Source: Ramlibacter sp. WS9
GTDB taxonomy: Bacteria; Pseudomonadota; Gammaproteobacteria; Burkholderiales; Burkholderiaceae_C
DNA length: 64,000 nt
Assembly: GCF_003797765.1 (NCBI RefSeq)
Contig: NZ_RKMB01000014.1
Coordinates: 1-64,000, forward strand
Direction of reading: 5' to 3'
Positions 2,692-50,597 of this stretch are shown one piece after another. The notes beneath the pieces were generated by a model, which did no database searches, had not been told where the DNA came from, and saw only the letters and a list, made by a program, of their open reading frames with translations. The translations under genes and the position numbers were made by a program. The stretch's first letter is position 1. Every line of letters starts with the position of its first letter.

Positions 2692-5163
2692 ATGGACCGC
2701 GCCCCCCACGAGATATCCGCGCTTGCGCATCACGATGCCAGCCTGCACGACCCGCAGGACGAGCTGGCCTGCCTGCGGCGTGAACTGGCCGAGGTGCGCA
2801 GTTCGCAGCAGTTGCTTTTGTCGACCCTCGACGCGGCCAGCGAAGGCATCGTGACGCTTCAGCATTCCGATGGCTCGCTCCACTTCAACAGCCGCTTCGC
2901 GCAGATGTGGGGCATCCCCGAAGCCGAGATCGCGCACATCGACCGGGATGAGCTGGTGCGTCTGCAGGCCACCCGCGTGAAAGATCCGCAGGAGCAGTTC
3001 CGTCGAACGGAAAAACTACTTGGGAACCCGGAGCACGCCGTCATCGGCCAGGTGGAAATGCTTGACGGACGCGTTCTCGAGCGGGAAGTCAGCCCGCAAC
3101 GCGTGGGCGGCAAATGCGTGGGCAGCGTGATCACATTCCGCGACATCACCGAACGGTTGCGCCGCGAAGAAGAAATCCGGGCGGCCGACCGCGAAATCCG
3201 CCGCCATCAAGCCACCCTGCTTTCGCTCATCGACTCGATCCCCGACACCATCACGTTCAAGGACCCGGACGGCCGCTACCTGGGCTGCAACAAGGCATTC
3301 AGCGAAATGACCGGCTACCGCCCAGAGGAGCTGCTGGGCCACACGGCGCTGGAAATGTTCCCCGGGGACAGGGGCCGACTGGTGTGGGACGAGGAGCGCG
3401 CCCTGATGGCCGACCTGCAGCCACGCGTGACCGAAGACCTGCAAGCCTATCCGGACGGCTCGCAACACTACAAGGAGATGCTGCGTTCGCCCTTGCGTGA
3501 TCGGGAGGGCGCACTCCTCGGCATGCTTGCCATCGGCCGCGACGTGACCGAACGCCGCCATGCCGAGGAGGAGGTCCGCCGCGCCAAGGAGATCGCCGAG
3601 GGAGCCACGCGTATGAAGTCGGACTTCCTGGCCAACATGAGCCATGAAATCCGCACGCCGATGAACGCAATCATCGGCCTGTCGCACCTGTTGCTGAAGA
3701 CCGACCTCGCGCCGCGCCAACGCGACTACATCGCCAAGGTCCAGACATCGGGACGGCACCTTCTGGGCGTGATCAACGACATTCTCGACTTCTCCAAAGT
3801 GGAGGCCGGCAAGCTGGACCTGGAGAACAACGGCTTCGAGCTGGCGAGCCTGCTGGACAACATGCACGCGCTGCTGGGAGAGAAGGCGCGGTCGAAGGGG
3901 CTGGAGCTTGCATTCGAAGTTGCGCCTGACGTTCCGTCTCACCTGGTAGGCGACCCGCTTCGGCTCGGCCAGGTGCTGATCAACTACGCGGGCAACGCGG
4001 TGAAGTTCACCGAGCGTGGCCAGGTCACCGTCTCGGTGAGTGCCGCTGAACGGACGGACAACGACGCCCTGCTGCGTTTTTGCGTGCGCGACACCGGCAT
4101 CGGCATCACGCCCGAACAGATGGGGCGCTTGTTCCAGAGCTTCTCGCAGGCAGACGCCTCGACCACGCGCCAGTTTGGAGGAACCGGCCTTGGGCTCGCG
4201 ATTTCGCGGCAACTGGCCGAGCTGATGGGCGGTGAAGTCGGCGTGGAAAGCGTACCGGGTGAAGGCAGCACCTTCTGGTTCACCGCGCGGCTCGGGATCG
4301 GCGCCGGCCAGCCGCCCGAGGCCGAACCGATACTCGCCTCGGCAGGCGATGCCGGCGTCGGGCCGGGCATCGCCACCGGCCTGGAGACGATCCGCGGCGC
4401 ACGCATTCTGCTGGTGGAAGACAACGACATCAACCAGGAAGTGGCACGCGAGATGCTGCAAGACGCGGGCCTCGTGGTCGACGTCGCCGCCAACGGACAG
4501 GTCGCGCTGGCGATGGTGCAGCAGTCACCTTATGACCTTGTCTTCATGGACATGCAGATGCCGGTGATGGACGGCGTGACCGCCACCGTCGAGATTCGCC
4601 GCTGTCCGCTGCTGCGCAACCTGCCCATCGTGGCGATGACCGCCAACGCGATGGAACAGGACCTGCAGCGCTGCATCGATGCGGGCATGGACGATTTCGT
4701 GGTGAAGCCGATCGACCCGTCGTCGTTGTGGGCCGTGCTCCTGCGTTGGATCAGGCCCGCCGCGCAGCCGGTGACCGCGCCGGACCCGTCGGCGCCGGCC
4801 AACCCGTTGGGCGACCTGCCGGAAGGCATCCCCGGGCTCGACACGGCGCTGGGGCTGTCGCGCATGATGGGAAAGAAGAAGCTTTACCTCGACATGCTCC
4901 GGCGTTTTGCCGACAGCCATCGCGGCGCGGTGGAGGAAATTTCGATGGCTTTGGTTTTCGGCGATGCACCAGCCGCCGAGAGGCTGGCCCACACCGCGAA
5001 GGGCGTGAGCGGCAGCATCGGTGCCACCGCGTTGCAAACCGCCGCGAGCGAGCTGGAACAGGGCCTGAAAGACGGGCTGCGCGGCGCGCCACTGGAGCCG
5101 CGGCTGCGGGAATTCGAATCGGCACTCAACGTGCTGATCGAGGCGCTCGACCGCTGCCTTTGA
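2692..5163 (+). CDS. PAS-PAS hybrid sensor histidine kinase with receiver and Hpt domains
   Basis: An 823-aa multistep phosphorelay protein. Order: short coiled coil; PAS domain about 40-160; second PAS about 175-300 ([22 protein letters not shown]); HisKA with phosphoacceptor His318 in [13 protein letters not shown]; HATPase with NAVKFT, DTGIGI and GGTGLGLAI; receiver domain with Asp620 in [12 protein letters not shown]-terminal Hpt with His767 in [11 protein letters not shown] see no transmembrane segments, so a cytoplasmic sensor is likely. All phosphotransfer residues are present. No separate output regulator is adjacent, so its target is unknown. The chosen ATG begins the coiled coil and follows a 78-base intergenic gap. 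Confidence 0.93.
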
Positions 5164-5174
5164 CCGAGTGCGGT

Positions 5175-5546
5175 TCAAGCCGGCGGGAATGACGCCGGCG
5201 TTCCGGTGCGGCCGGTGGGGCGAAGCTGCGACGCCAAGCCCTCCGGCAAGATGCCCTGGAAATGGATGCCCAGGCGCGCCAGCGTCTGGCGGGCCACGGC
5301 CTCACCGTGGTACGACGCCAGCATGCTCATGACCTCCGGGCGCATGTACCACAGGCCGACGGCATCGCCGGCGACGTGGATGCGGTGCATCAGCGCGCGC
5401 GCGCCCGGGGCCGCGCTGATGCCGGCCAGCGCTTCGAGCATCGCGGAGCGGAGCGCCTCGGTGCGTTCCTTGTGAGTCGCGCGGGCCGGGCCGGCACCGG
5501 CGGGCTCGCTGCCCGCCAGGCCGCGGCTGGACGAAAACCAGTTCAT
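5175..5546 (-). CDS. Hypothetical protein, 123 aa
   Basis: I do not recognise this protein. The ATG at 5546 (MNWFSSSRGL) is preceded by AGGAG at good spacing; an in-frame upstream start at 5639 would add 31 residues and overlap the AT-rich promoter region. The N-terminal third is low in structure (Ser, Gly, Ala, Pro), followed by a helical stretch of about 80 residues (EALRSAMLEALAGI, then MRPEVMSMLASYHGEAVARQTL). There is no signal peptide or membrane segment. Its stop lies 11 bases from the end of the convergent hybrid kinase. Function unknown. Confidence 0.6.
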   Translation of the reverse strand: MNWFSSSRGLAGSEPAGAGPARATHKERTEALRSAMLEALAGISAAPGARALMHRIHVAGDAVGLWYMRPEVMSMLASYHGEAVARQTLARLGIHFQGILPEGLASQLRPTGRTGTPASFPPA

Positions 5547-11894: not shown

Positions 11895-12941
<1,047 letters not shown>

Positions 12942-12957
12942 ATTGTTTCTTTCGCGA

Positions 12958-13788
12958 TTACTTCACAGCGCCGAAGGTGAGGCCTTGGACCAATTGCTTC
13001 TGGCAGAACCAGCCGAACACCACGATGGGCGCGATGGCCATCAGCGAGGCGGCCGAGAGCTTGGCCCAGAAGAGGCCTTCGGGGCTCGAATAGGAGGCGA
13101 TCAGTGCCGCCAGCGTGCCGGCCTTGGCCGCGCTCAGGTTCAAGGCCCAGAACGCCTCGTTCCAGGACAGCACCAGGCACAGCAGGCCCGTGGATGCCAG
13201 GCCGCCCATCGCCAGCGGCGCGAGCACCATGCGGCACTCCTGCCACAGCGTGGCGCCGTCCATTCGCGCGGCTTCCAGGATCTCGTGCGGGATGTCCTTG
13301 AAGTGCGAGTACAGCATCCAGACCATGATCGGCAGGTTGGACAGGGTGAAGACGATGATCAGGCCGGCCTGCGTGTCCAACAGGTGGCTCTTTTGCGCCA
13401 GCACATACACCGGCACCAGCGCGCCGACGGCCGGCATCATCTTGGTCGACAGCATCCACATCAGGATGTCGCGGGTGCGCTTGGTCTTGAAGAACGTCAT
13501 CGAATAGGCGGCGGGCGCGGCGATGGCCAGGCCGATCAGCGTGGACAGCACGCTGGTGATGACGGAGTTCTTGGCGTACAGCAGGTAGTCGCTGCGCTGC
13601 TGCACCTCGTGGAAGTTTTCCAGCGTGGGCGAAAAGAAGAACAGCGGCGGCACGTTGATGGCCTGCAACTCGGTCTTGAAGGCCATCATGAACAGCCAGC
13701 CGAGCGGGAAGAAAATCATCAGCGTGACGATCCAGGCCGCGGCCGTGCGGGCGACGAGGGCCGGGGTGAAGCGATACGGCAAGTTCAT
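12958..13788 (-). CDS. mtlG: ABC transporter permease, polyol uptake (second subunit)
   Basis: Integral membrane subunit of 276 aa with about six transmembrane helices. The EAA loop that contacts the ATPase reads EAARMDGATLWQECRMVLAPLAMGG. The start MNLPYRFTPALV at 13788 lies two bases after the stop of the first permease gene. A longer open frame continues upstream to 14514, but that part is out of frame with the real first permease and is spurious. Matches the SmoG/MtlG class of carbohydrate CUT1 permeases. Confidence 0.92.
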   Translation of the reverse strand: MNLPYRFTPALVARTAAAWIVTLMIFFPLGWLFMMAFKTELQAINVPPLFFFSPTLENFHEVQQRSDYLLYAKNSVITSVLSTLIGLAIAAPAAYSMTFFKTKRTRDILMWMLSTKMMPAVGALVPVYVLAQKSHLLDTQAGLIIVFTLSNLPIMVWMLYSHFKDIPHEILEAARMDGATLWQECRMVLAPLAMGGLASTGLLCLVLSWNEAFWALNLSAAKAGTLAALIASYSSPEGLFWAKLSAASLMAIAPIVVFGWFCQKQLVQGLTFGAVK

Positions 13789-39081: not shown

Positions 39082-39095
39082 TGGCGGAGCAGGTG
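39082..39095. repeat. Left attachment repeat (attL)
   Basis: TGGCGGAGCAGGTG, identical to the complement of the last 14 bases of tRNA-Ser(CGA) including CCA. After this core the sequence diverges (CCCGCC here, GGATTC in the tRNA), which marks the island side. Confidence 0.85.
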
Positions 39096-39257: not shown

Positions 39258-40547
39258 ATGGCACGGATAGCTAAGCAGTTGTCGGCGGCTGAGGTTGCGC
39301 GGCTGAAGATGCGCGATGACCGCCGCTTGCACGCAGTAGGCGGCACGCCGGGCCTGTGCTTGCAACTGATGCCCGACCGGTCGCCGTCCTGGGTGTTGCG
39401 GTGCACGGTGGACGCGCGGCGGCATGAAATGGGGCTGGGCAAATACCCCGAGGTCACGCTGGCTCAGGCGCGCCAGAAGGGCCGCGAGGCGCGCGACCTG
39501 GTGGCGTTGGGCATTGACCCCATCCTTGACCGGCGAGAGGCCCGAGGGGCCAATCTAGGCGCGCAGGCGAAGGCTCGTGCGGACCAGCTGGCTGCGGAAG
39601 CCAAGGCCGCCGAGGCAGCTGCTGAGGCAAAGGCCAAGTTGGTCACGTTCAAGGAGGCTGCGGAGCGGCTCATGAAAGTGAAGTCGCCGGAGTGGCGCAG
39701 CGCCAAGCACGCCGCGCAGTGGCGCGCCACCCTGGAGACGTACGCCTACCCGAAGATCGGGCACATGCCAGTGAATGAGGTGAAGAAGAGCCACCTGCTA
39801 GAGGTCCTTGAGCCTCTTTGGCACACACGGACCGAAACCGCCGAGCGCCTCCGCCAGCGGATTAGCGTTGTCCTGGATTGGGCTACATCCAGCGAACTGC
39901 GCTCGGGGCCGAACCCGGCAAGATGGAAAGGAAACTTGGACACCGAGCTGCGCAATCCCAAGAAGCTTAAGCCGGTGAAGCACCTGCGCGCGTTGCCAGT
40001 CGCCGCCATGCCCAGTTTCATGAAGGACCTGCGTGGGCAAGCCGGGATGGGCGCGTTGGCCTTGCAAGTGCTGGTCTTGACCGCCGCGAGGTCGGGCGAG
40101 GTGCGCGGCGCAACCTGGGACGAGATCGATCTGGACTCGGCGGTGTGGACCGTGCCTGCCGGAAGAATGAAGGGCGGCAAACTGCACAGGGTGCCGCTCA
40201 GCGACGCAGCGGTGCTGCTGCTGCGGGGCGTGCCCCGGATCGAGGACTGCAACTTGGTGTTCCCGTCGAACAAGCTGGGGCAGGTGAGCGATATGACCCT
40301 GCTCGCCGTGCTGAAGCGCATGAAAGTGAAGGCCACGGTTCACGGGTTCCGAAGCGCCTTCCGGGTTTGGGTTGGCGAAAACACGGCCTTCCCGTCCGAG
40401 CTGGCCGAACAAGCGCTGGCTCACGCCCTGGGTGGCGTGGAAGCCGCCTACATGAGATCGGACCTGCTGGAAAAGCGGCGTCAGCTGATGGAGGCGTGGG
40501 CACAGTTCCTGGCGGGACCCAAGGTCATGGAAATCGAACCAACGTGA
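39258..40547 (+). CDS. int: P4-type tyrosine integrase
   Basis: Site-specific recombinase of 429 aa. The N-terminal DUF4102 arm-binding domain is about residues 1-90 (KQLSAAEVARLKMRDDRRLHAV and KYPEVTLAQARQKGREARDLVALGIDP), followed by an Ala/Lys-rich linker, a core-binding domain and the catalytic domain. Catalytic residues are Arg278 (AARSGEVRG), His362 and Arg365 (HGFRSAFR), His389 and the nucleophile Tyr398 (AAYMRSD). It appears complete. The ATG at 39258 follows the end repeat; a longer frame to 39093 lies in the att region. It should integrate the island at tRNA-Ser. Confidence 0.93.
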   Translation: MARIAKQLSAAEVARLKMRDDRRLHAVGGTPGLCLQLMPDRSPSWVLRCTVDARRHEMGLGKYPEVTLAQARQKGREARDLVALGIDPILDRREARGANLGAQAKARADQLAAEAKAAEAAAEAKAKLVTFKEAAERLMKVKSPEWRSAKHAAQWRATLETYAYPKIGHMPVNEVKKSHLLEVLEPLWHTRTETAERLRQRISVVLDWATSSELRSGPNPARWKGNLDTELRNPKKLKPVKHLRALPVAAMPSFMKDLRGQAGMGALALQVLVLTAARSGEVRGATWDEIDLDSAVWTVPAGRMKGGKLHRVPLSDAAVLLLRGVPRIEDCNLVFPSNKLGQVSDMTLLAVLKRMKVKATVHGFRSAFRVWVGENTAFPSELAEQALAHALGGVEAAYMRSDLLEKRRQLMEAWAQFLAGPKVMEIEPT

Positions 40548-40618: not shown

Positions 40619-40647
40619 GTGCATCACTATGGTGTAAAGTGGTGCAC
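40619..40647. promoter_or_regulatory. Inverted repeat upstream of the RHH gene, probable operator
   Basis: GTGCATCAC at 40619-40627 and GTGGTGCAC at 40639-40647 form an inverted repeat with one mismatch and an 11-base spacer, 20 bases before the ribbon-helix-helix gene. A repressor of that class commonly binds such a site in its own promoter; binding here is inference. Confidence 0.45.
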
Positions 40648-40667
40648 CTCTGCTACGGGTATTGTCC

Positions 40668-40856
40668 ATGGCCCAGAAGAAGTCCAAATCGAGTACGACA
40701 ACCACACGCCGGACGTCCGTTACCTTCCCCAGTGATCTGTATCGAACGCTTGAGCAGATCGCTGAACAGCAGAAATTGTCAGTCGCCTGGGTCATCCGGG
40801 ATGCGACAGAAAAATATGTCAGCGAGCGATGGCCGCTGCTAGAGAGGAAGGAGTGA
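40668..40856 (+). CDS. Ribbon-helix-helix (CopG-like) DNA-binding protein, 62 aa
   Basis: Small regulator. A basic start (MAQKKSKSSTTTTRRTSVTF) leads into the beta strand, and the two helices follow (PSDLYRTLEQIAEQQKLSVAWVIRDATEKYVSE), the standard CopG/Arc fold. The ATG at 40668 is preferred over the TTG at 40662. Its stop lies four bases before the methyltransferase ATG, with the AGGAAGGAG ribosome binding site inside this gene's last codons, so the two are probably translated together. It may set the level of the methyltransferase, as control proteins do in restriction-modification operons. Confidence 0.8.
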   Translation: MAQKKSKSSTTTTRRTSVTFPSDLYRTLEQIAEQQKLSVAWVIRDATEKYVSERWPLLERKE

Positions 40857-40860
40857 GGCA

Positions 40861-42066
40861 ATGACCATTGCGGAACGAGTCCGGGGAAGTCCCGCATGCC
40901 TGGCTAATCTGGTGGAGGCCGCCTGCGATTCATCGCCCATAGCTGGCCTTACGCACAATTTCTATCGGTACCCCGCGCGTTTCTCGCCCAAACTTGTCCG
41001 TGCAGCCATAGACGCTTTTACTGATCCGGGCGATCTTGTGCTTGACCCATTTGTGGGTGGTGGCACCACGCTCGTCGAGGCGATGGTTTCAGGCCGCCAT
41101 GCTATCGGCTCCGATATCAGCTCCCTCGCGACATTCGTCAGTGAGGTAAAAACGACCCTCTTCACTGACGCCGAGTTGGAACGATTAACGAAGTGGGCAG
41201 GCACGATCGCAGCGGGGATCAACATCTGGGCACCTGTGACTCAGGATGTCATGTATGAGAACGCGGGTTACATGCGCAATCTTGACGGTGCGGCGACCTG
41301 GCGCTTAAAGAAGGCCATCGAGCAGGTGCTACAGACGGCCAGACTGCTGAACAGCAGCCGACTAGAAGCCTTCGCGCGCTGTGTCGTGCTCCGTACCGCG
41401 CAATGGGCATTGAATGGACGCAAAAAGCTGCCGACGATCGACGACTTTCGCGAGATGTTGTGCACCGACGCTGCCGCGATGATTGAAGGATCACGGGCAC
41501 TGCGTGAAGCCATCAAGACTGGGGGCCACGCTGAGGTCAAAGTTCACTGCTTGAATCGGACAACGAATGGCCTTGAAACCGAAAAGATATTTGCCACTGG
41601 GAAAGCGCCCCAGCTGGTTGTTACTTCGCCTCCGTATCCTGGCGTGCATGTCCTGTATCACCGATGGCAAGTTGACGGTCGAAAAGAAACTCCGGCTCCG
41701 TTCTGGATCGCCAATCGACTGGACGGCGATGGTGCCGCTTACTACACGATGGGCGCGCGCAATACGGTGCAGCTCAACACCTACTTCGCGAATTTGCGTG
41801 CGTCCCTGAAGTCCGTCGCGGCGCTGTGTTCAAGGGAAACCATGGTCGTGCAGGTCGTTGCATTCTCGGAGCCGGAATGGCAGCTACCTCGCTACTTGTC
41901 GGTAGCTGATGACGTCGGGTTGATCGAATGCATTTTGCCAAATGTGAATCACGCATCGGATGGCCGCCTTTGGCGGACAGTGCCAAATCGCAAGTGGTAC
42001 GCGGACCAACGCGGCGACACTAGCAGTAGCCAAGAGGTCGTCTTGTTTCACCGTAAGCGTTTATAA
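40861..42066 (+). CDS. DNA methyltransferase, N4-cytosine/N6-adenine type
   Basis: A 401-aa S-adenosylmethionine-dependent DNA methylase. The cofactor motif DPFVGGGTT is at residues 62-70 and the catalytic motif SPPYP at 256-260. SPPY is most often seen in N4-cytosine enzymes. The cofactor motif precedes the catalytic motif by about 190 residues, leaving space for a target-recognition region between them. N-terminal HNFYRYPARFSPKLVRAAID resembles other orphan methylases of this class. It shares a promoter with the RHH gene and ends tail-to-tail with the GHKL-like gene, sharing six bases. No restriction nuclease of a known family is adjacent. Confidence 0.85.
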   Translation: MTIAERVRGSPACLANLVEAACDSSPIAGLTHNFYRYPARFSPKLVRAAIDAFTDPGDLVLDPFVGGGTTLVEAMVSGRHAIGSDISSLATFVSEVKTTLFTDAELERLTKWAGTIAAGINIWAPVTQDVMYENAGYMRNLDGAATWRLKKAIEQVLQTARLLNSSRLEAFARCVVLRTAQWALNGRKKLPTIDDFREMLCTDAAAMIEGSRALREAIKTGGHAEVKVHCLNRTTNGLETEKIFATGKAPQLVVTSPPYPGVHVLYHRWQVDGRKETPAPFWIANRLDGDGAAYYTMGARNTVQLNTYFANLRASLKSVAALCSRETMVVQVVAFSEPEWQLPRYLSVADDVGLIECILPNVNHASDGRLWRTVPNRKWYADQRGDTSSSQEVVLFHRKRL

Positions 42067-44619
42067 AACTTCCTCGACGGCCGCGTCCACGTCGTTGGTC
42101 TCCGCCAAGCCCGCTAAATCACTTTCGTCCAAGTCGTCTTCGCCCAATTCCCCCAGGGTCTGGATCATGGGTAAGAGTACTGGAGCGACCGCACGGCTGA
42201 AAACGCGGACGTGGTCCTGAAGGTTAGCCTCCGCGTCTTTCTCGTCGCTCGCCGCTGCGCCGGGCTTCTTGTGCAGATGCTCATGTATCAGACCCATGCC
42301 GATCAATACTGCACCAACTTCAAATTGCTTCAGCAAGACTTGGGCGTTTGACTTGCTCGCCTTCAGTTCTGTCTGCAGGGAAAGATTGTCCTCATTGAGA
42401 TAGAACATGTAGCTGATTTCGGACTTGCCGTTAACCTCACTGATGTCCTCAATGAGATCGAGGCATGAATTCTCATCCGAAAAATGCTCGGCCCACTTGG
42501 GATCCGACTTCTTCAGGCGGATTACCGTTGGGAGCGCTATTCCCCCTTCACCGTCTGGTACGGGGCCAGGCTTACTGCCCGGCGGCGGCGGCTTGACTGA
42601 CGGCGTGCTCTTGACTACGTGCATAGCGGGGGCGACCAGCAACGTCATCACGTTCTTGAACGTGCGTTGCATGATTTCGTCTTCGACGATCATTTCGTAG
42701 ATAAGCGTGTCGCCGGGTTTCGCACTGGCGGGCAGATCGAATGAAATCGTGGCACGTCCGCGGACCAAATTCGGTCCATTAAACGACTGAATGGGCTCTG
42801 ACTGACCATCCGTGAGACGGTGGAATTTGAACACTCCAGGATCGTACTTGCGCGTGAAATAGGCGTCTTCCGCGTCCGTCGCGAAGATGACGCGGCACTT
42901 CTGATCCATATGAGCCGCCCTCTTGAGTTCCACGCCTGGTTCCTTGCCAGTGAAATGGAAGTACGTTGGGTGTGAATGCAGTTTGGGCGGCGCGGGGTCG
43001 GGTTGCACTTTTTCCGGCTTGAACGGTGTGGAAAGACGTTCACCCTTTCCGAACAGCTTCGCCAATGCCGGCGAACTCTTCAGCACGTGTTTAAGCACAG
43101 ATTCGAGCGGCTTGTTGTCGCTCAACTGTTCTTGAAGGTCTTGCTGGGCGCGTTTATTGCGCAACTCGCGCAGCCCCGGGTGCTCATGCAGTGCGTCCTC
43201 CAGGTTTCGTTCCAGTTCCGTGAACAGGGGCGATTCCTCGGCCACGCGGTCGCGGCTGCTCATGAACAAATCATCCCTCTGGTTGGCATCGAGCGTAGAG
43301 CAATCCACGACGACAAGAAGATCTCTGGCGAGCCGCTGAAGCCCAACGCGCTTCCTGGCAAATATGGTGGCCTTGATATCCGCATGTGCCTGCCCATTCA
43401 CCGTAAAGATGACACCTTCATTGCTCCTGTACGTGGCTGCCTTCGTAGGCTTGAACGCGAAGACGCGCGCAATAATCTGCTTGCCTTGGATAGTGATGGG
43501 CATGCTCATTGGCGGCGTATCTTCGAGGTTGTCACTTTTTTGCAAACGCGCGAATAGTCCGGCCATGGTCGTCGACTGCTCGGACGCCCCCTTTTCGCCT
43601 ACCCCATGGGCGCGCTTGCGGCACTCGTGCATTCGAATGGGTAGAGCCGGGTCTGGCAAGAGTAGGTCGAGCTTGTACAGCAAGCCGTCACGGCGAATGA
43701 TGTTGCCTGTGCTCTTCAGCTGGTAGGCATACAGCTTTATTAGGGTTCCAGATTCCACATCGCGCTTGTATGCCACATCCCCCTTGGGAAAGAGCGGCAT
43801 CGTCGGCGCCTTAAAGCGAAGAACCCCGCCCTTTCGTGGCTCAGTATCGGCACCCAATGGAGCTAGATAAGTCAACACCGGAATTTTGCTGGTCGCTGTG
43901 GCCTCCTCGCGCCGGACGATGGTAAAGCCCCAGCAATCGTCGCTCTCGTGCTTGGGGTAATTTGCGGAAACGTTGGGCGCCCCGATGAGCTTGGGGTGCC
44001 GGCGCGAAACGATGAGCTGAAGCTTGGCATTTCCGCAATGGCGAATGGCTCCGCTTCCGCCTTGACAGAATTTTCCCTGGACGAACGGGACGGATGCCTT
44101 GTTGCGCTTGCCTAAGGAGACCAAGGTATCGGGGAACGCTTCGGGGGTATGACCCTCTCCCAGGTCGGCAATGTTTACCGAGGGCTTCGTTGAAGATTTG
44201 GAGCCGGGCGCTTCTGTCGTAAAAACGGAGATATTCTCCGCGACCTTCGTGCGAAAACTGACCGGCCAATCTTCGACCCGGCCACCCGACGTTGTGAGCT
44301 TGGCCGTGTGCTCGATGAACTTCGCCACCGCTTCGCGAATGGACTTCGGCGCGGTGGGGCCTTCGGGATCAATCCCTTCGAGCAGACACTTCAACGTCAG
44401 AACAGAGTCGATCGAGTTGATGTTCTTTTCGTTCAACGCGAAGTCGGCGCGCCCTTGCTGTCCGCCCGCCTGCGACCAATTCAACTCGTTGTCGCCGTAA
44501 TAACGCCAGCACGCCGGGTTGTCCCAATAGCCTGCGTTCTTGAGAAGGGCGATTACCTCCGCCTCGGAGTCTTCATGGATGAGTTTTTCGCAGAGATCCT
44601 TGGCGGTGTTGGAGTGCAT
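42061..44619 (-). CDS. Large protein with GHKL/MORC-like ATPase motifs, 852 aa
   Basis: I do not know a named family for this protein. The N-terminal 200 residues carry what looks like a GHKL (gyrase/Hsp90/MutL) ATP site: Glu64 and Asn68 in NEKNINSIDS match the ExxxNSxD box; Asp152, Gly154 and Gly156 in NIADLGEGHTPEAF match DxGxG; QGKFCQGGSGAIRH at 181-194 matches the glycine-rich lid. Middle and C-terminal parts include a charged helical stretch, a possible beta-sandwich (RGRATISFDLPASAKPGDTLIYEM) and an acidic tail. The ATG at 44619 has AAGGG upstream. MutL/MORC-like ATPases are known beside DNA methylases in restriction-modification loci, which fits the convergent methylase. The fold assignment is by eye. 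Confidence 0.75.
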   Translation of the reverse strand: MHSNTAKDLCEKLIHEDSEAEVIALLKNAGYWDNPACWRYYGDNELNWSQAGGQQGRADFALNEKNINSIDSVLTLKCLLEGIDPEGPTAPKSIREAVAKFIEHTAKLTTSGGRVEDWPVSFRTKVAENISVFTTEAPGSKSSTKPSVNIADLGEGHTPEAFPDTLVSLGKRNKASVPFVQGKFCQGGSGAIRHCGNAKLQLIVSRRHPKLIGAPNVSANYPKHESDDCWGFTIVRREEATATSKIPVLTYLAPLGADTEPRKGGVLRFKAPTMPLFPKGDVAYKRDVESGTLIKLYAYQLKSTGNIIRRDGLLYKLDLLLPDPALPIRMHECRKRAHGVGEKGASEQSTTMAGLFARLQKSDNLEDTPPMSMPITIQGKQIIARVFAFKPTKAATYRSNEGVIFTVNGQAHADIKATIFARKRVGLQRLARDLLVVVDCSTLDANQRDDLFMSSRDRVAEESPLFTELERNLEDALHEHPGLRELRNKRAQQDLQEQLSDNKPLESVLKHVLKSSPALAKLFGKGERLSTPFKPEKVQPDPAPPKLHSHPTYFHFTGKEPGVELKRAAHMDQKCRVIFATDAEDAYFTRKYDPGVFKFHRLTDGQSEPIQSFNGPNLVRGRATISFDLPASAKPGDTLIYEMIVEDEIMQRTFKNVMTLLVAPAMHVVKSTPSVKPPPPGSKPGPVPDGEGGIALPTVIRLKKSDPKWAEHFSDENSCLDLIEDISEVNGKSEISYMFYLNEDNLSLQTELKASKSNAQVLLKQFEVGAVLIGMGLIHEHLHKKPGAAASDEKDAEANLQDHVRVFSRAVAPVLLPMIQTLGELGEDDLDESDLAGLAETNDVDAAVEEVL

Positions 44620-44653
44620 GGTTGCCCTTGGTAGTGAAAGGTGAGATCCGGTA

Positions 44654-44917
44654 CTACAGCTTGAACTCGACGGCAACACGACTGCCTTGCTCGGTCATGC
44701 GCGCCTTCAGGGCATCGACTTCCTTGTTCAGGGCGTTGACGATTTTCTTTACGTCAGCCTCGTCGTATTGATAGTGGGACTTGTTGCCGAGCTTGCCGAT
44801 AACTCGGATGGCACGGATCGCATTGATGGTGCGGTTCTCCGCTAGTAGAACGAACTTTTCACGCTTCGCGCTGGTCAGTTCCTTGACCACCGATTTCGAT
44901 TTTGTCGCGGATTCCAC
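44654..44917 (-). CDS. Small conserved-looking partner protein, 87 aa
   Basis: Unknown 87-aa basic helical protein. It begins ESATKSKSVVKELTSAKREKFVLLAENRT, continues NAIRAIRVIGKLGNKSHYQYDEADVKKIV and ends in a probable coiled coil (NALNKEVDALKARM). The start is GTG at 44917 with AAGGAG eight bases upstream. It is the first gene after a near-consensus promoter and lies 34 bases before the large GHKL-like gene, so the two form one operon. Its size and position suggest a regulatory or scaffold subunit of the large protein. Confidence 0.75.
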   Translation of the reverse strand: MESATKSKSVVKELTSAKREKFVLLAENRTINAIRAIRVIGKLGNKSHYQYDEADVKKIVNALNKEVDALKARMTEQGSRVAVEFKL

Positions 44918-44943
44918 GGGCTTCTCCTTTTCCGAAAAGACAG

Positions 44944-44972
44944 ATCATATTGGCGACAAATCTCCTTGTCAA
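44944..44972 (-). promoter_or_regulatory. Near-consensus sigma-70 promoter
   Basis: Minus strand: TTGACA at 44967-44972, a 17-base spacer, then TATGAT at 44944-44949. Only one base differs from consensus. Transcription would begin about 20 bases before the 87-aa gene. No operator-like repeat overlaps it, so the 87-aa/GHKL-like operon is probably expressed constitutively. Confidence 0.8.
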
Positions 44973-46685: not shown

Positions 46686-46925
46686 CTAAGCCTTGCCGAT
46701 CCGCTCCGTACCTTCGCGAGACACGATGTCGTCGGGGTGCATTTTCTGAACCATTCGGATGGCCTCCGCCTCGTTCCTTGCTTCGACGGTGACGGGGAAA
46801 CTCAGTTCGTCTGACTTAAGTTCCACGCCCTCGCCGTTCACATTTCTACCCTCATTCCAGAATAGACGATAGTCGTTCTGTCGACCACGGAAAATGACCA
46901 GAACGCTGTAAATGCTCTTTGACAT
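46686..46925 (-). CDS. Hypothetical protein, 79 aa
   Basis: Unknown small protein starting MSKSIYSVLVIFRGRQND, with GGGGAGA before the ATG at 46925. An upstream in-frame ATG at 46946 is less well placed. Strand-helix order (SVLVIFRG, then FPVTVEARNEAEAIRMVQKMHPD) suggests a small alpha/beta fold. Island gene; function unknown. Confidence 0.6.
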   Translation of the reverse strand: MSKSIYSVLVIFRGRQNDYRLFWNEGRNVNGEGVELKSDELSFPVTVEARNEAEAIRMVQKMHPDDIVSREGTERIGKA

Positions 46926-47002
46926 CCTACTGTCTCCCCGGCGCATTAGCCCAAAGAAACCGGCGCTTGAGCGTCGGTTTTGGCTGACAGGTTAGTCTTC
47001 CG

Positions 47003-47758
47003 CTACACGTGAAATGCATGAACCAGGTTGCCTAAAAGAGTGGGCTGGAGATACGTGGTCTTGTTCACTGGAATGATCATCGTAGAGACGCTGGGTAGCA
47101 ACTTGACGCCTAAATTCATGCGCCACGCCGTGAGCCCGCAGACCAGATCTCTCCACTTGTGGGGCGGCTCGTTCTTGTAAGGAAGAACAAGGAAGAACCA
47201 ATAGCAGTTAATTGCGATCATACGGACTACGAAGCGATGAGACATTGGACCATCGTATGGAATCTCCGCACATCGTAAGTGCCTCGGCTCCAGAAATTTC
47301 TCAGTTCCTTCGTTTAAATTGATCGCCCTCGAAGCAGTGACAATCTGAAGGCGGAGCTCAACTGGGGGGCGATAGCCGCCGTGAAGCATGAAGTTGATCA
47401 AACCCTTGTGTGCTTTAACAACCTTCTCAGAGGCATCTGCTCTGGCGGAGTTGAATGATACTTTTAGCAGCGCCCTTAGGAGCAATTCATGGTCATACGA
47501 GATAGACGCCTGCTCCCCTGGAAGCAAGATCTGGTGGAAGTGAGCGTCATAAAGAGAGGCAAGGTAGGAATCAAGCTTGCTGAGAAGAACGTTATTGCAG
47601 TGTGCGCAAACGTCCTTGATCGTTGGGTCTCCTTTATAGAACTTGGATTCCCTCTTCGAATACGTTAGCAAGCTCTCATACTTTTCAATCAAGCAGTTGG
47701 GCCAAATATGCTCCTTGGTAAGCGGAGCACTCTGGCCACAGTATGAGCACGTCTTCAT
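47003..47758 (-). CDS. HNH-type zinc-finger protein, possible endonuclease, 251 aa
   Basis: The N terminus has the treble-clef layout of HNH proteins: Cys4 and Cys7 in MKTCSYCGQ, then KEHIWPN at 15-21, then Cys51, Cys54 and Asn55 in CAHCNN. The order CxxC, EH, CxxCN matches the HNH_5-like class, where His17 would be the general base. The rest (about 80-251) is a larger domain I do not recognise (LLLRALLKVSFNSARADASEKVV). Length and island setting are consistent with a defence nuclease, but activity is inference. Confidence 0.75.
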   Translation of the reverse strand: MKTCSYCGQSAPLTKEHIWPNCLIEKYESLLTYSKRESKFYKGDPTIKDVCAHCNNVLLSKLDSYLASLYDAHFHQILLPGEQASISYDHELLLRALLKVSFNSARADASEKVVKAHKGLINFMLHGGYRPPVELRLQIVTASRAINLNEGTEKFLEPRHLRCAEIPYDGPMSHRFVVRMIAINCYWFFLVLPYKNEPPHKWRDLVCGLTAWRMNLGVKLLPSVSTMIIPVNKTTYLQPTLLGNLVHAFHV

Positions 47759-50506: not shown

Positions 50507-50520
50507 TGGCGGAGCAGGTG
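50507..50520. repeat. Right attachment repeat (attR) inside tRNA-Ser
   Basis: TGGCGGAGCAGGTG, complement of the tRNA 3' end (CACCTGCTCCGCCA), identical to 39082-39095. It covers the CCA, the 3' half of the acceptor stem and the start of the T stem. Confidence 0.85.
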
Positions 50521-50597
50521 GGATTCGAACCCACGGTACGGCATAACCGTACACCGGATTTCGAGTCCGGCGCATTCGACCACTCTGCCACCGCTCC
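50507..50597 (-). tRNA. tRNA-Ser (anticodon CGA)
   Basis: On the minus strand the 91 bases run from GGAGCGG to CCGCTCC-type pairing and end in an encoded CCA. The D arm begins TGGCAGAGTGG, the anticodon loop is CTCGAAA (anticodon CGA, reading UCG), a long variable arm follows as in serine tRNAs, and the T arm is GGGTTCGAATCCC. It lies 41 bases after serS on the same strand. Its 3' end is the insertion site of the island; the integrated copy keeps an intact tRNA. Confidence 0.97.

Follow-up and report, generated by a model that had tools for sequence, protein, structure and literature searches.

A convergent methylase and GHKL ATPase pair with an exchangeable upstream partner in Ramlibacter sp. 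WS9, a candidate restriction-modification-like defence cassette

Described GHKL systems and the Ramlibacter module

GHKL ATPases in restriction-modification (R-M) loci have been known since 2008, and modules of GHKL plus S5 domains have been proposed as engines moving or looping DNA in such loci (text of PMC2292703). In the present study, we examined a module of Ramlibacter sp. WS9 in which the gene of a predicted amino-DNA methyltransferase meets, tail to tail, a two-gene operon for an 87-amino-acid (aa) protein and an 852-aa GHKL ATPase. The stretch of DNA analysed, hereafter the window, is the first 64 kb of the 157-kb contig NZ_RKMB01000014.1, from a genome of 6.98 Mb. The methylase and the ATPase were found to be one conserved unit across phyla. 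In most cases no nuclease can be recognised beside this recurrent pair, which suggests R-M defence of an unusual kind.

Among the described systems, the prokaryotic MORC and paraMORC R-M loci resemble the module in joining a GHKL plus S5 ATPase and a DNA methylase in a mobile locus, and a minority of their neighbourhoods hold methylases or restriction endonucleases and no helicase (Iyer, Abhiman and Aravind 2008, PMC2292703, in its text). They differ by the S5 motif GhXhhpXXRhl of MORC, which was absent from the window family (0 of 80 aligned rows, with the last position taken as aliphatic). Furthermore, no fixed tail-to-tail pair with an N4/N6-methylase, swapped partner or 87-aa companion was found in the consulted part of the text of PMC2292703. 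The GHKL-type Shedu protein VcSduA (paraMORC3) shares the N-terminal GHKL ATPase and belongs to an anti-phage system, but it has a C-terminal PD-(D/E)xK nuclease (DUF4263), and no methylase partner is named in the consulted part of PMC12137116; the window ATPase has no such conserved residues, and DUF4263 had no Pfam match in it or in the relative rows scanned. The HEF_HK/Response_reg_2 loci also link GHKL ATPases to R-M genes, but as a two-component-like pair with conspicuous C5-cytosine methylases (consulted part of PMC8011034), and neither family (PF19191, PF19192) was matched among nine window proteins scanned. To the HgiDII/BbrUII restriction enzymes (NF050001) there is weak local similarity after the ATP site, but with 13.8 bits against a cut-off of 550 the window ATPase is not a member by that model. 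A DNA methyltransferase gene (PF01555), with methylation predicted, is shared with Type II R-M. BREX marks self DNA by methylation, and the role of a nuclease in it has long been unclear; this marking is its likeness to the predicted cassette, and two scans, of nine and of eight window proteins, matched no gene of PglZ or BrxC type. Overall, a fixed convergent pair, an exchangeable upstream partner and a companion protein were not found in the consulted parts of the open PMC literature, and the figures or supplements of the 2008 paper may show some of them.

The conserved pair and its ATPase

The methylase gene (40861..42066, forward strand, 401 aa) matched PF01555 (N6_N4_Mtase, E 2.1e-14), and its last six nucleotides (nt), 42061-42066, overlap the end of the ATPase gene (42061..44619, reverse strand, 852 aa from ATG), which is the tail-to-tail overlap that the original prediction had described. 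The motifs DPFVGGGTT (residues 62-70) and SPPYP (256-260) belong to an order of X-I (H32..P43, D62..T69) and then IV (TSPPYPG, 255-261). The closest solved chain was a DNA N4-cytosine methyltransferase (E 7.3e-7, residues 36-89 only), and we infer N4-methylcytosine or N6-methyladenine as the product. In the order of the host the methylase is rare, being found at E 1e-20 in 2 of 399 genomes, the own one included.

Relatives of the ATPase were collected by a scan of one genome per species, which gave 476 stretches and 429 relatives, of which the best 80 by similarity were kept; others came from plasmids and from a family search (5 of 399 genomes, own included). A scan of genome contigs with the ATPase as single query found no relative. 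Excluded were the loci with a broken or cut-off large gene (L042, L045, L046, L052, L055, L078, L081, L092), duplicate views of other loci (L007, L001, L002) and the broken L010, which left 79 usable large proteins, one of them cut (L016).

The methylase family of the window was nearby in 45 of these 79 loci, and in 41 of the 45 it converges with the ATPase, the ends being -80 to +65 nt apart; in L020, L033, L040 and L049 it lies elsewhere nearby. This sample is biased to the window protein, and the proportion in the family at large should not be taken as 45 of 79. Two of the excluded loci (L042, L081) also have the methylase convergent, and L052 has a piece of it. The pair was found in, among others, Pseudomonadota, Acidobacteria, Chloroflexota, Planctomycetota, Bacillota and Omnitrophota. 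On the ATPase tree, which like the other tree used here is a quick search with no bootstrap, methylase presence could be explained by 3 changes, where shuffled labels needed 23.3 (75 rows were scored; L016, L071, L072, L075 and L089, five of the 34 loci without the methylase, lie near contig ends and were left unscored). Chance adjacency of two unrelated modules is ruled out by the 41 convergent pairs out of 45 together with the three-change tree. The methylase as partner of the module, as first proposed, is borne out as a conserved pair and is not universal, a large ATPase clade being without it; homologues lying mostly without the methylase in unrelated contexts were not what we found among the 79, with the bias just given.

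The original prediction had also stated that helicase, Z1 and nuclease partners are absent, and this agrees with the neighbourhoods: none of the three recurs in more than 3 of the 79 loci, aside from an upstream partner of PIN type in 4. Within 6 kb, upstream partners aside, no gene family at all exceeded three loci, in a count made with simple open reading frame (ORF) models, often short flanks and gene names given by reading. The families found in three were histidine-kinase/GHKL-like (L011, L013, L018), a large ATPase (L011-L013), an ABC ATPase-like family and an 1132-aa protein.

Some loci depart from this arrangement. The plasmid ATPase relatives L011, L012 and L013 lie near PAPS reductase genes, and L012 and L013 also have DUF4007; these clusters are phosphorothioation-like. 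In L097 (wider stretch L132) a methylase relative (about 42% identity) has a different GHKL-like gene (LLELVKNSYDADA) downstream of it in the same orientation. In a member of the methylase-free clade, L058, a Dam-like methylase (12379-13206, reverse strand) is convergent, 36 nt after the ATPase, and is possibly a replacement for the usual methylase. In L010 (G056) and L123 the large gene is in two pieces and the small gene, in L123 also the methylase, is a full match; these are probably decaying copies. Among contigs of a viral collection, complete modules were found on L121 and L122/L125, and on L126 one with no small-gene match. Phage records searched with the ATPase gave no match. The phage-like contig L124 has the methylase family (3994-5178) and neither an ATPase nor a small-protein match, with only 1.1 kb following the methylase; this gene may possibly serve phage self-methylation against, or escape from, such cassettes.

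The ATPase has all the Bergerat motifs (N-box, G1 DxGxG and glycine-rich lid). Glu64, Asn68, Asp71, D152-x-G154-x-G156 and the lid residues Q181, G182 and G187 were invariant in 72 aligned rows (the window ATPase and 71 relatives), and the residues named in the original prediction are in place. The structure model built on this alignment had a mean predicted local distance difference test (pLDDT) of 84.7 and a predicted template modelling score (pTM) of 0.82. Foldseek matched it to topo VI-B, Hsp90, GyrB and MORC2 (E 1.7e-8 to 4.3e-7), with template modelling scores by target of 0.28-0.43, which are low since the targets align only in part. VIA-align gave TRAP1 at Z 15.6 (root-mean-square deviation 4.5, 294 residues, span 43-496) and other Hsp90s at Z of about 14-16. 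The matches to these GHKL proteins, within 43-496, thus agree with the fold expected beforehand, and by the model the ATPase is a GHKL plus S5/transducer protein. With borders drawn by eye, the predicted domains are GHKL (about 1-355), S5/transducer (about 355-500), a middle domain for which Foldseek gave Ig-like matches (about 554-663) and a C-terminal alpha/beta domain (about 698-825). Sequence profiles were less informative: Pfam had no match for the window ATPase and matched HATPase_c_3 in 7 of 41 relative rows scanned, and phmmer and profile searches against the PDB returned nothing credible. Of the four module proteins, PADLOC 2023 matched only the methylase (MTase_II), with 0 families for the ATPase or the 87-aa protein.

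The alternative that survives best is R-M of a Type II-like kind, with the large protein as an ATP-dependent nuclease whose C-terminal active site is hidden, and with the small protein as its cofactor; we consider it unlikely. A methylase with one large protein is the classical R-M layout, and in NCBIfam the ATPase matched one family only, and weakly, that of the BbrUII/HgiDII restriction enzymes (NF050001, E 0.015, 13.8 bits, residues 438-497). That match, however, falls far short of the cut-off of 550 bits and covers the transducer and the helices following it, and at E 0.01 the family was found in 0 of 41 rows. Past residue 500, the charged or amide residues conserved in at least 90% of 80 rows were R576, D582, R590, D647, N742 and N745. 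As E, K and H are missing from this set, no known nuclease signature (PD-(D/E)xK or HNH site) is present there, and the middle domain has Ig-like matches.

The upstream partner and the carrying island

Different genes can take the place directly before the ATPase. Of seven partner types, one was recognised there in 44 of the 45 methylase cassettes (the window and 44 others; none was recognised in L047) and in 17 of the 34 loci without the methylase. The types in the 45 cassettes are small helical, as in the window (19), b (12), c (4), PIN (3), e (2), HTH_17 (1) and Mrr_N (3), with Pfam labels taken from one or two examples per type and with no Pfam name for b, c and e. Mrr_N was found in L054 and L082, HTH_17 (just under the cut-off) in L021 and a DndB-like partner in L072. 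The Mrr_N and HTH_17 types look DNA-binding, and a guess from sequence would make b and c DNA-binding as well. In L028 (Pfam PIN, 1.2e-19), L039, L064 and L088 a PIN/VapC-like gene takes the place of the 87-aa partner, preceded in the first three by an AbrB-like small gene (by reading).

The upstream type changed 10 times on the ATPase tree and 13 times on the methylase tree (45 rows; 22.5 when shuffled, minimum 6). In the cassette of G098 (L009) the methylase is 75% and the small protein 66% identical to those of the window, the ATPase only 29%, and judged from such comparisons the ATPase itself is also swapped between cassettes. Over 24 cassettes, the distances of small protein and methylase were correlated (rho 0.74, Mantel p 0.0005), against 0.12 for small protein and ATPase and -0.01 for methylase and ATPase; when the four cassettes with diverged ATPases were removed, these values became 0.69, 0.44 and 0.35. 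Over the 45 cassettes, the ATPase-methylase correlation was 0.15 (Mantel p 0.05). The rho of 0.74 had prompted the idea that the small protein recognises in DNA the target of the methylase. This idea was weakened and set aside, given the values after that removal: the type changes number 10 and 13, and the small family also occurs with other ATPases and with 5-methylcytosine (m5C) methylases. For the region between motifs I and IV of the methylase, the correlation (0.73) was not clearly above that of the catalytic part (0.67).

The partner in the window, the 87-aa protein (44654..44917, reverse strand, GTG start), was characterised by its alignment, its model and hidden Markov model matches upstream of GHKL genes. 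It is probably a helical hairpin with a loose C-terminal tail ending in FKL, as the model has helices at 3-44 and 53-76 (residues 21-70 at pLDDT >90, pTM 0.58). Pfam gave only sub-threshold matches (E 0.04 or worse), and PHROGs gave an unnamed family for two of its relatives and nothing for the window protein. In 8 of the 11 plasmid loci fetched (15 records matched), the next gene on the same strand encodes a GHKL-type ATPase, the exceptions being L101, L107 and L108, the last followed by an IS3 transposase. It was so as well in 8 of 8 genomes of Pseudomonadota besides the own one (9 matched of 398 searched), in 3 of 3 assessable genomes, besides the centre, of the phylum of the L094 host (5 matched of 348; L148 ends at a contig edge), and in 1 of 1 viral-collection contig. 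Of the 12 phage records matched, the two fetched (L106, L110) had no GHKL-type gene next.

The downstream proteins caught, those of L098 and L105 omitted, fell into five GHKL-type BLAST clusters with no links at 1e-8, one being the family of the window, so the small family precedes at least four other GHKL-type ATPase families. Outside the family of the window the GHKL label was mostly given by reading motifs such as REAIQNSLDA together with GGSFGIGK: Pfam HATPase (E 0.001-0.06) was matched only in L098, L099 and L100, there was no HATPase match at 0.1 in L102, L103, L105, L109 and the annotated part of L104, and in L109 the N-box Asn is replaced by Asp. Among the neighbours of the small-protein relatives outside that family are m5C methylases, Vsr, an AlwI-type endonuclease, MutH/Sau3AI, DUF6339 and Shedu. 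From its sequence relatives, the small protein is a general GHKL companion that is not specific to this module. The single unit first proposed is supported, as a conserved one, for the methylase-ATPase pair (45 of 79 nearby, 41 of 45 convergent) and not for the 87-aa protein, which is one of at least seven partners and occurs also with other GHKL-type ATPases, several of them in R-M loci.

Stand-alone homologues were seen in phages, 11 of the 12 phage records matched being Synechococcus phages. Synechococcus phage S-CRES3 gp49 (L106, 3010-3261) is a clear homologue (53 bits) without the FKL tail, and in the 6.2 kb around it no GHKL gene is annotated. Such a copy is possibly a decoy, or possibly in unrelated phage use.

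The remaining features concern the control and the carriage of the module. The ribbon-helix-helix (RHH) protein (40668..40856, forward strand, 62 aa from ATG; Pfam RHH_5 E 1.8e-7, RHH_1 E 1.3e-6) is a probable regulator of the methylase, and RHH homologues also precede the methylase in L009 and L022; the RHH and methylase genes are as the original prediction described them. A promoter-like site of the small gene-ATPase operon (44944..44972, reverse strand; TTGACA-17-TATGAT, 11 of 12 consensus matches only) is weak evidence, as the region has two such sites with 1.9 expected.

The island location claimed for the module agrees with an integrase, a 14-nt repeat, a tRNA-Ser and low GC content. The island tyrosine integrase (39258..40547, forward strand; Pfam Phage_int_M 5.7e-31, Arm-DNA-bind_3 4.4e-17, Phage_integrase 3.4e-12) likely starts at ATG 39258, its ORF opening at 39093. 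Ahead of it lies the left copy of the direct repeat TGGCGGAGCAGGTG, a putative attachment site (39082..39095), which matches exactly the right copy (50507-50520) in the 3' end of a tRNA-Ser (CGA) gene (50507..50597, reverse strand; ARAGORN; Rfam RF00005, 61.5 bits). From about 40.5 to 50 kb the GC content is 0.51-0.61, lower than the usual level of about 0.65. Because of the integrase, the low GC and the exact repeat ending in tRNA-Ser, the module is read as carried by a mobile 11.4-kb island at this tRNA gene. No empty site was seen in the five congener loci read (13 genomes searched, all with the right flank or the tRNA matched); in these five the DNA left of tRNA-Ser differs from the island. 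In one congener (L140), two stretches left of tRNA-Ser are 70-71% identical in DNA to the integrase region of the island, and the site is likely an integration hot spot. An integrase-like gene (by reading) precedes the module in L009 as well. About 2 kb past the module, a 251-aa island protein (47003-47758, reverse strand) with a weak HNH_5 match (E 0.002, below the cut-off) is possibly nuclease cargo of the island. The faint DpnD/PcfM-like match (E 0.015) of an 86-aa protein (46686-46946, reverse strand) is unconvincing.

Possible function of the cassette

We read the module as a compact mobile R-M-like defence cassette, in which methylation would guard self DNA and a partner-guided ATP clamp would act on unmarked DNA, and we place about half of our confidence in this reading. 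In the proposed mechanism, the methylase would put an N4-cytosine or N6-adenine mark on the target sites of the host. The upstream partner, here the small helical protein, would bind the ATPase and load or license it on DNA. ATP binding would then shut the ATPase dimer as a clamp on unmarked incoming DNA, in the way of MORC and other GHKL clamps, and the clamped DNA would be barred from replication and transcription or passed to a host nuclease. The RHH protein may control methylase expression so that the mark precedes ATPase action. That the ATPase acts on unmarked DNA, as the original prediction also had it, is a step which we infer.

Several points weigh against this defence reading. One large ATPase clade is without the methylase of the window (26 rows, of which 22 were scored and 4 lie near contig ends). 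In 31 of the 34 methylase-free loci no other methylase was seen by motif in the DNA stretches examined; only L058, with its Dam-like gene, L077 and L094 had one. The ATPase of that clade, at least, would therefore not need a marked host, and the clamp mechanism cannot by itself account for the whole family. Among the 399 family genomes searched, two other ATPase matches also lacked the methylase nearby (L008, and L010 with its broken ATPase gene). PADLOC matched the ATPase in 0 of 41 rows and thus gives it no defence label. The Foldseek and VIA-align matches barely reach past residue 665 or so, and their silence there carries no weight on a novel C-terminal nuclease. In addition, the co-variation of small protein and methylase (rho 0.74) may reflect shared host lineage.

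Two further alternatives, both of which we think improbable, and a little more so than the hidden nuclease, are equal in our estimation. In the first, the ATPase and its partner would be a self-sufficient defence pair with its own trigger (type IV-like or abortive), the methylase being linked and secondary in one lineage group. The methylase-free clade with the same ATPase architecture speaks for it, as do partners that include PIN/VapC-like and, in L072, DndB-like proteins, and plasmid relatives that have PAPS reductase genes nearby and, in two of the three, DUF4007; the very constant position of the methylase where present, which argues for a working link, and its conserved presence on the tree speak against it. 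In the second, the module would not be for defence but would be an epigenetic or chromosome-structure device (silencing or compaction of the MORC kind, with methylation as its reference) that keeps the island stable or regulates genes. A MORC-type fold with no recognised nuclease, the methylase-free clade and the place on an integrative island are in keeping with this, but the patchy spread over many phyla and viral-collection contigs, the swapping of the upstream gene and the companion relatives beside m5C methylases, Vsr, restriction endonucleases and Shedu are not.

The defence reading can be carried further, in a form that we offer tentatively. The module might represent a non-cutting class of R-M, in which methylation protects self DNA and unmethylated DNA is trapped by a GHKL clamp that has no nuclease and depends on an exchangeable partner for its loading. 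The helical protein of 75-100 aa might serve several unrelated GHKL families of defence loci as a general subunit for loading or gating, and its stand-alone cyanophage copies might be jamming decoys.

If the defence reading is true, the cassette would be a widespread methylation-coupled defence layout, whose effector has no PADLOC 2023 label and no Pfam family of its own. It would also give a model of two to three genes for what bacterial MORC-like ATPases do to DNA, and the part of GHKL ATPases in R-M loci, open since 2008, would become testable with a small cassette. The companion protein provides a sequence handle on GHKL systems whose ATPases are too diverged to recognise.

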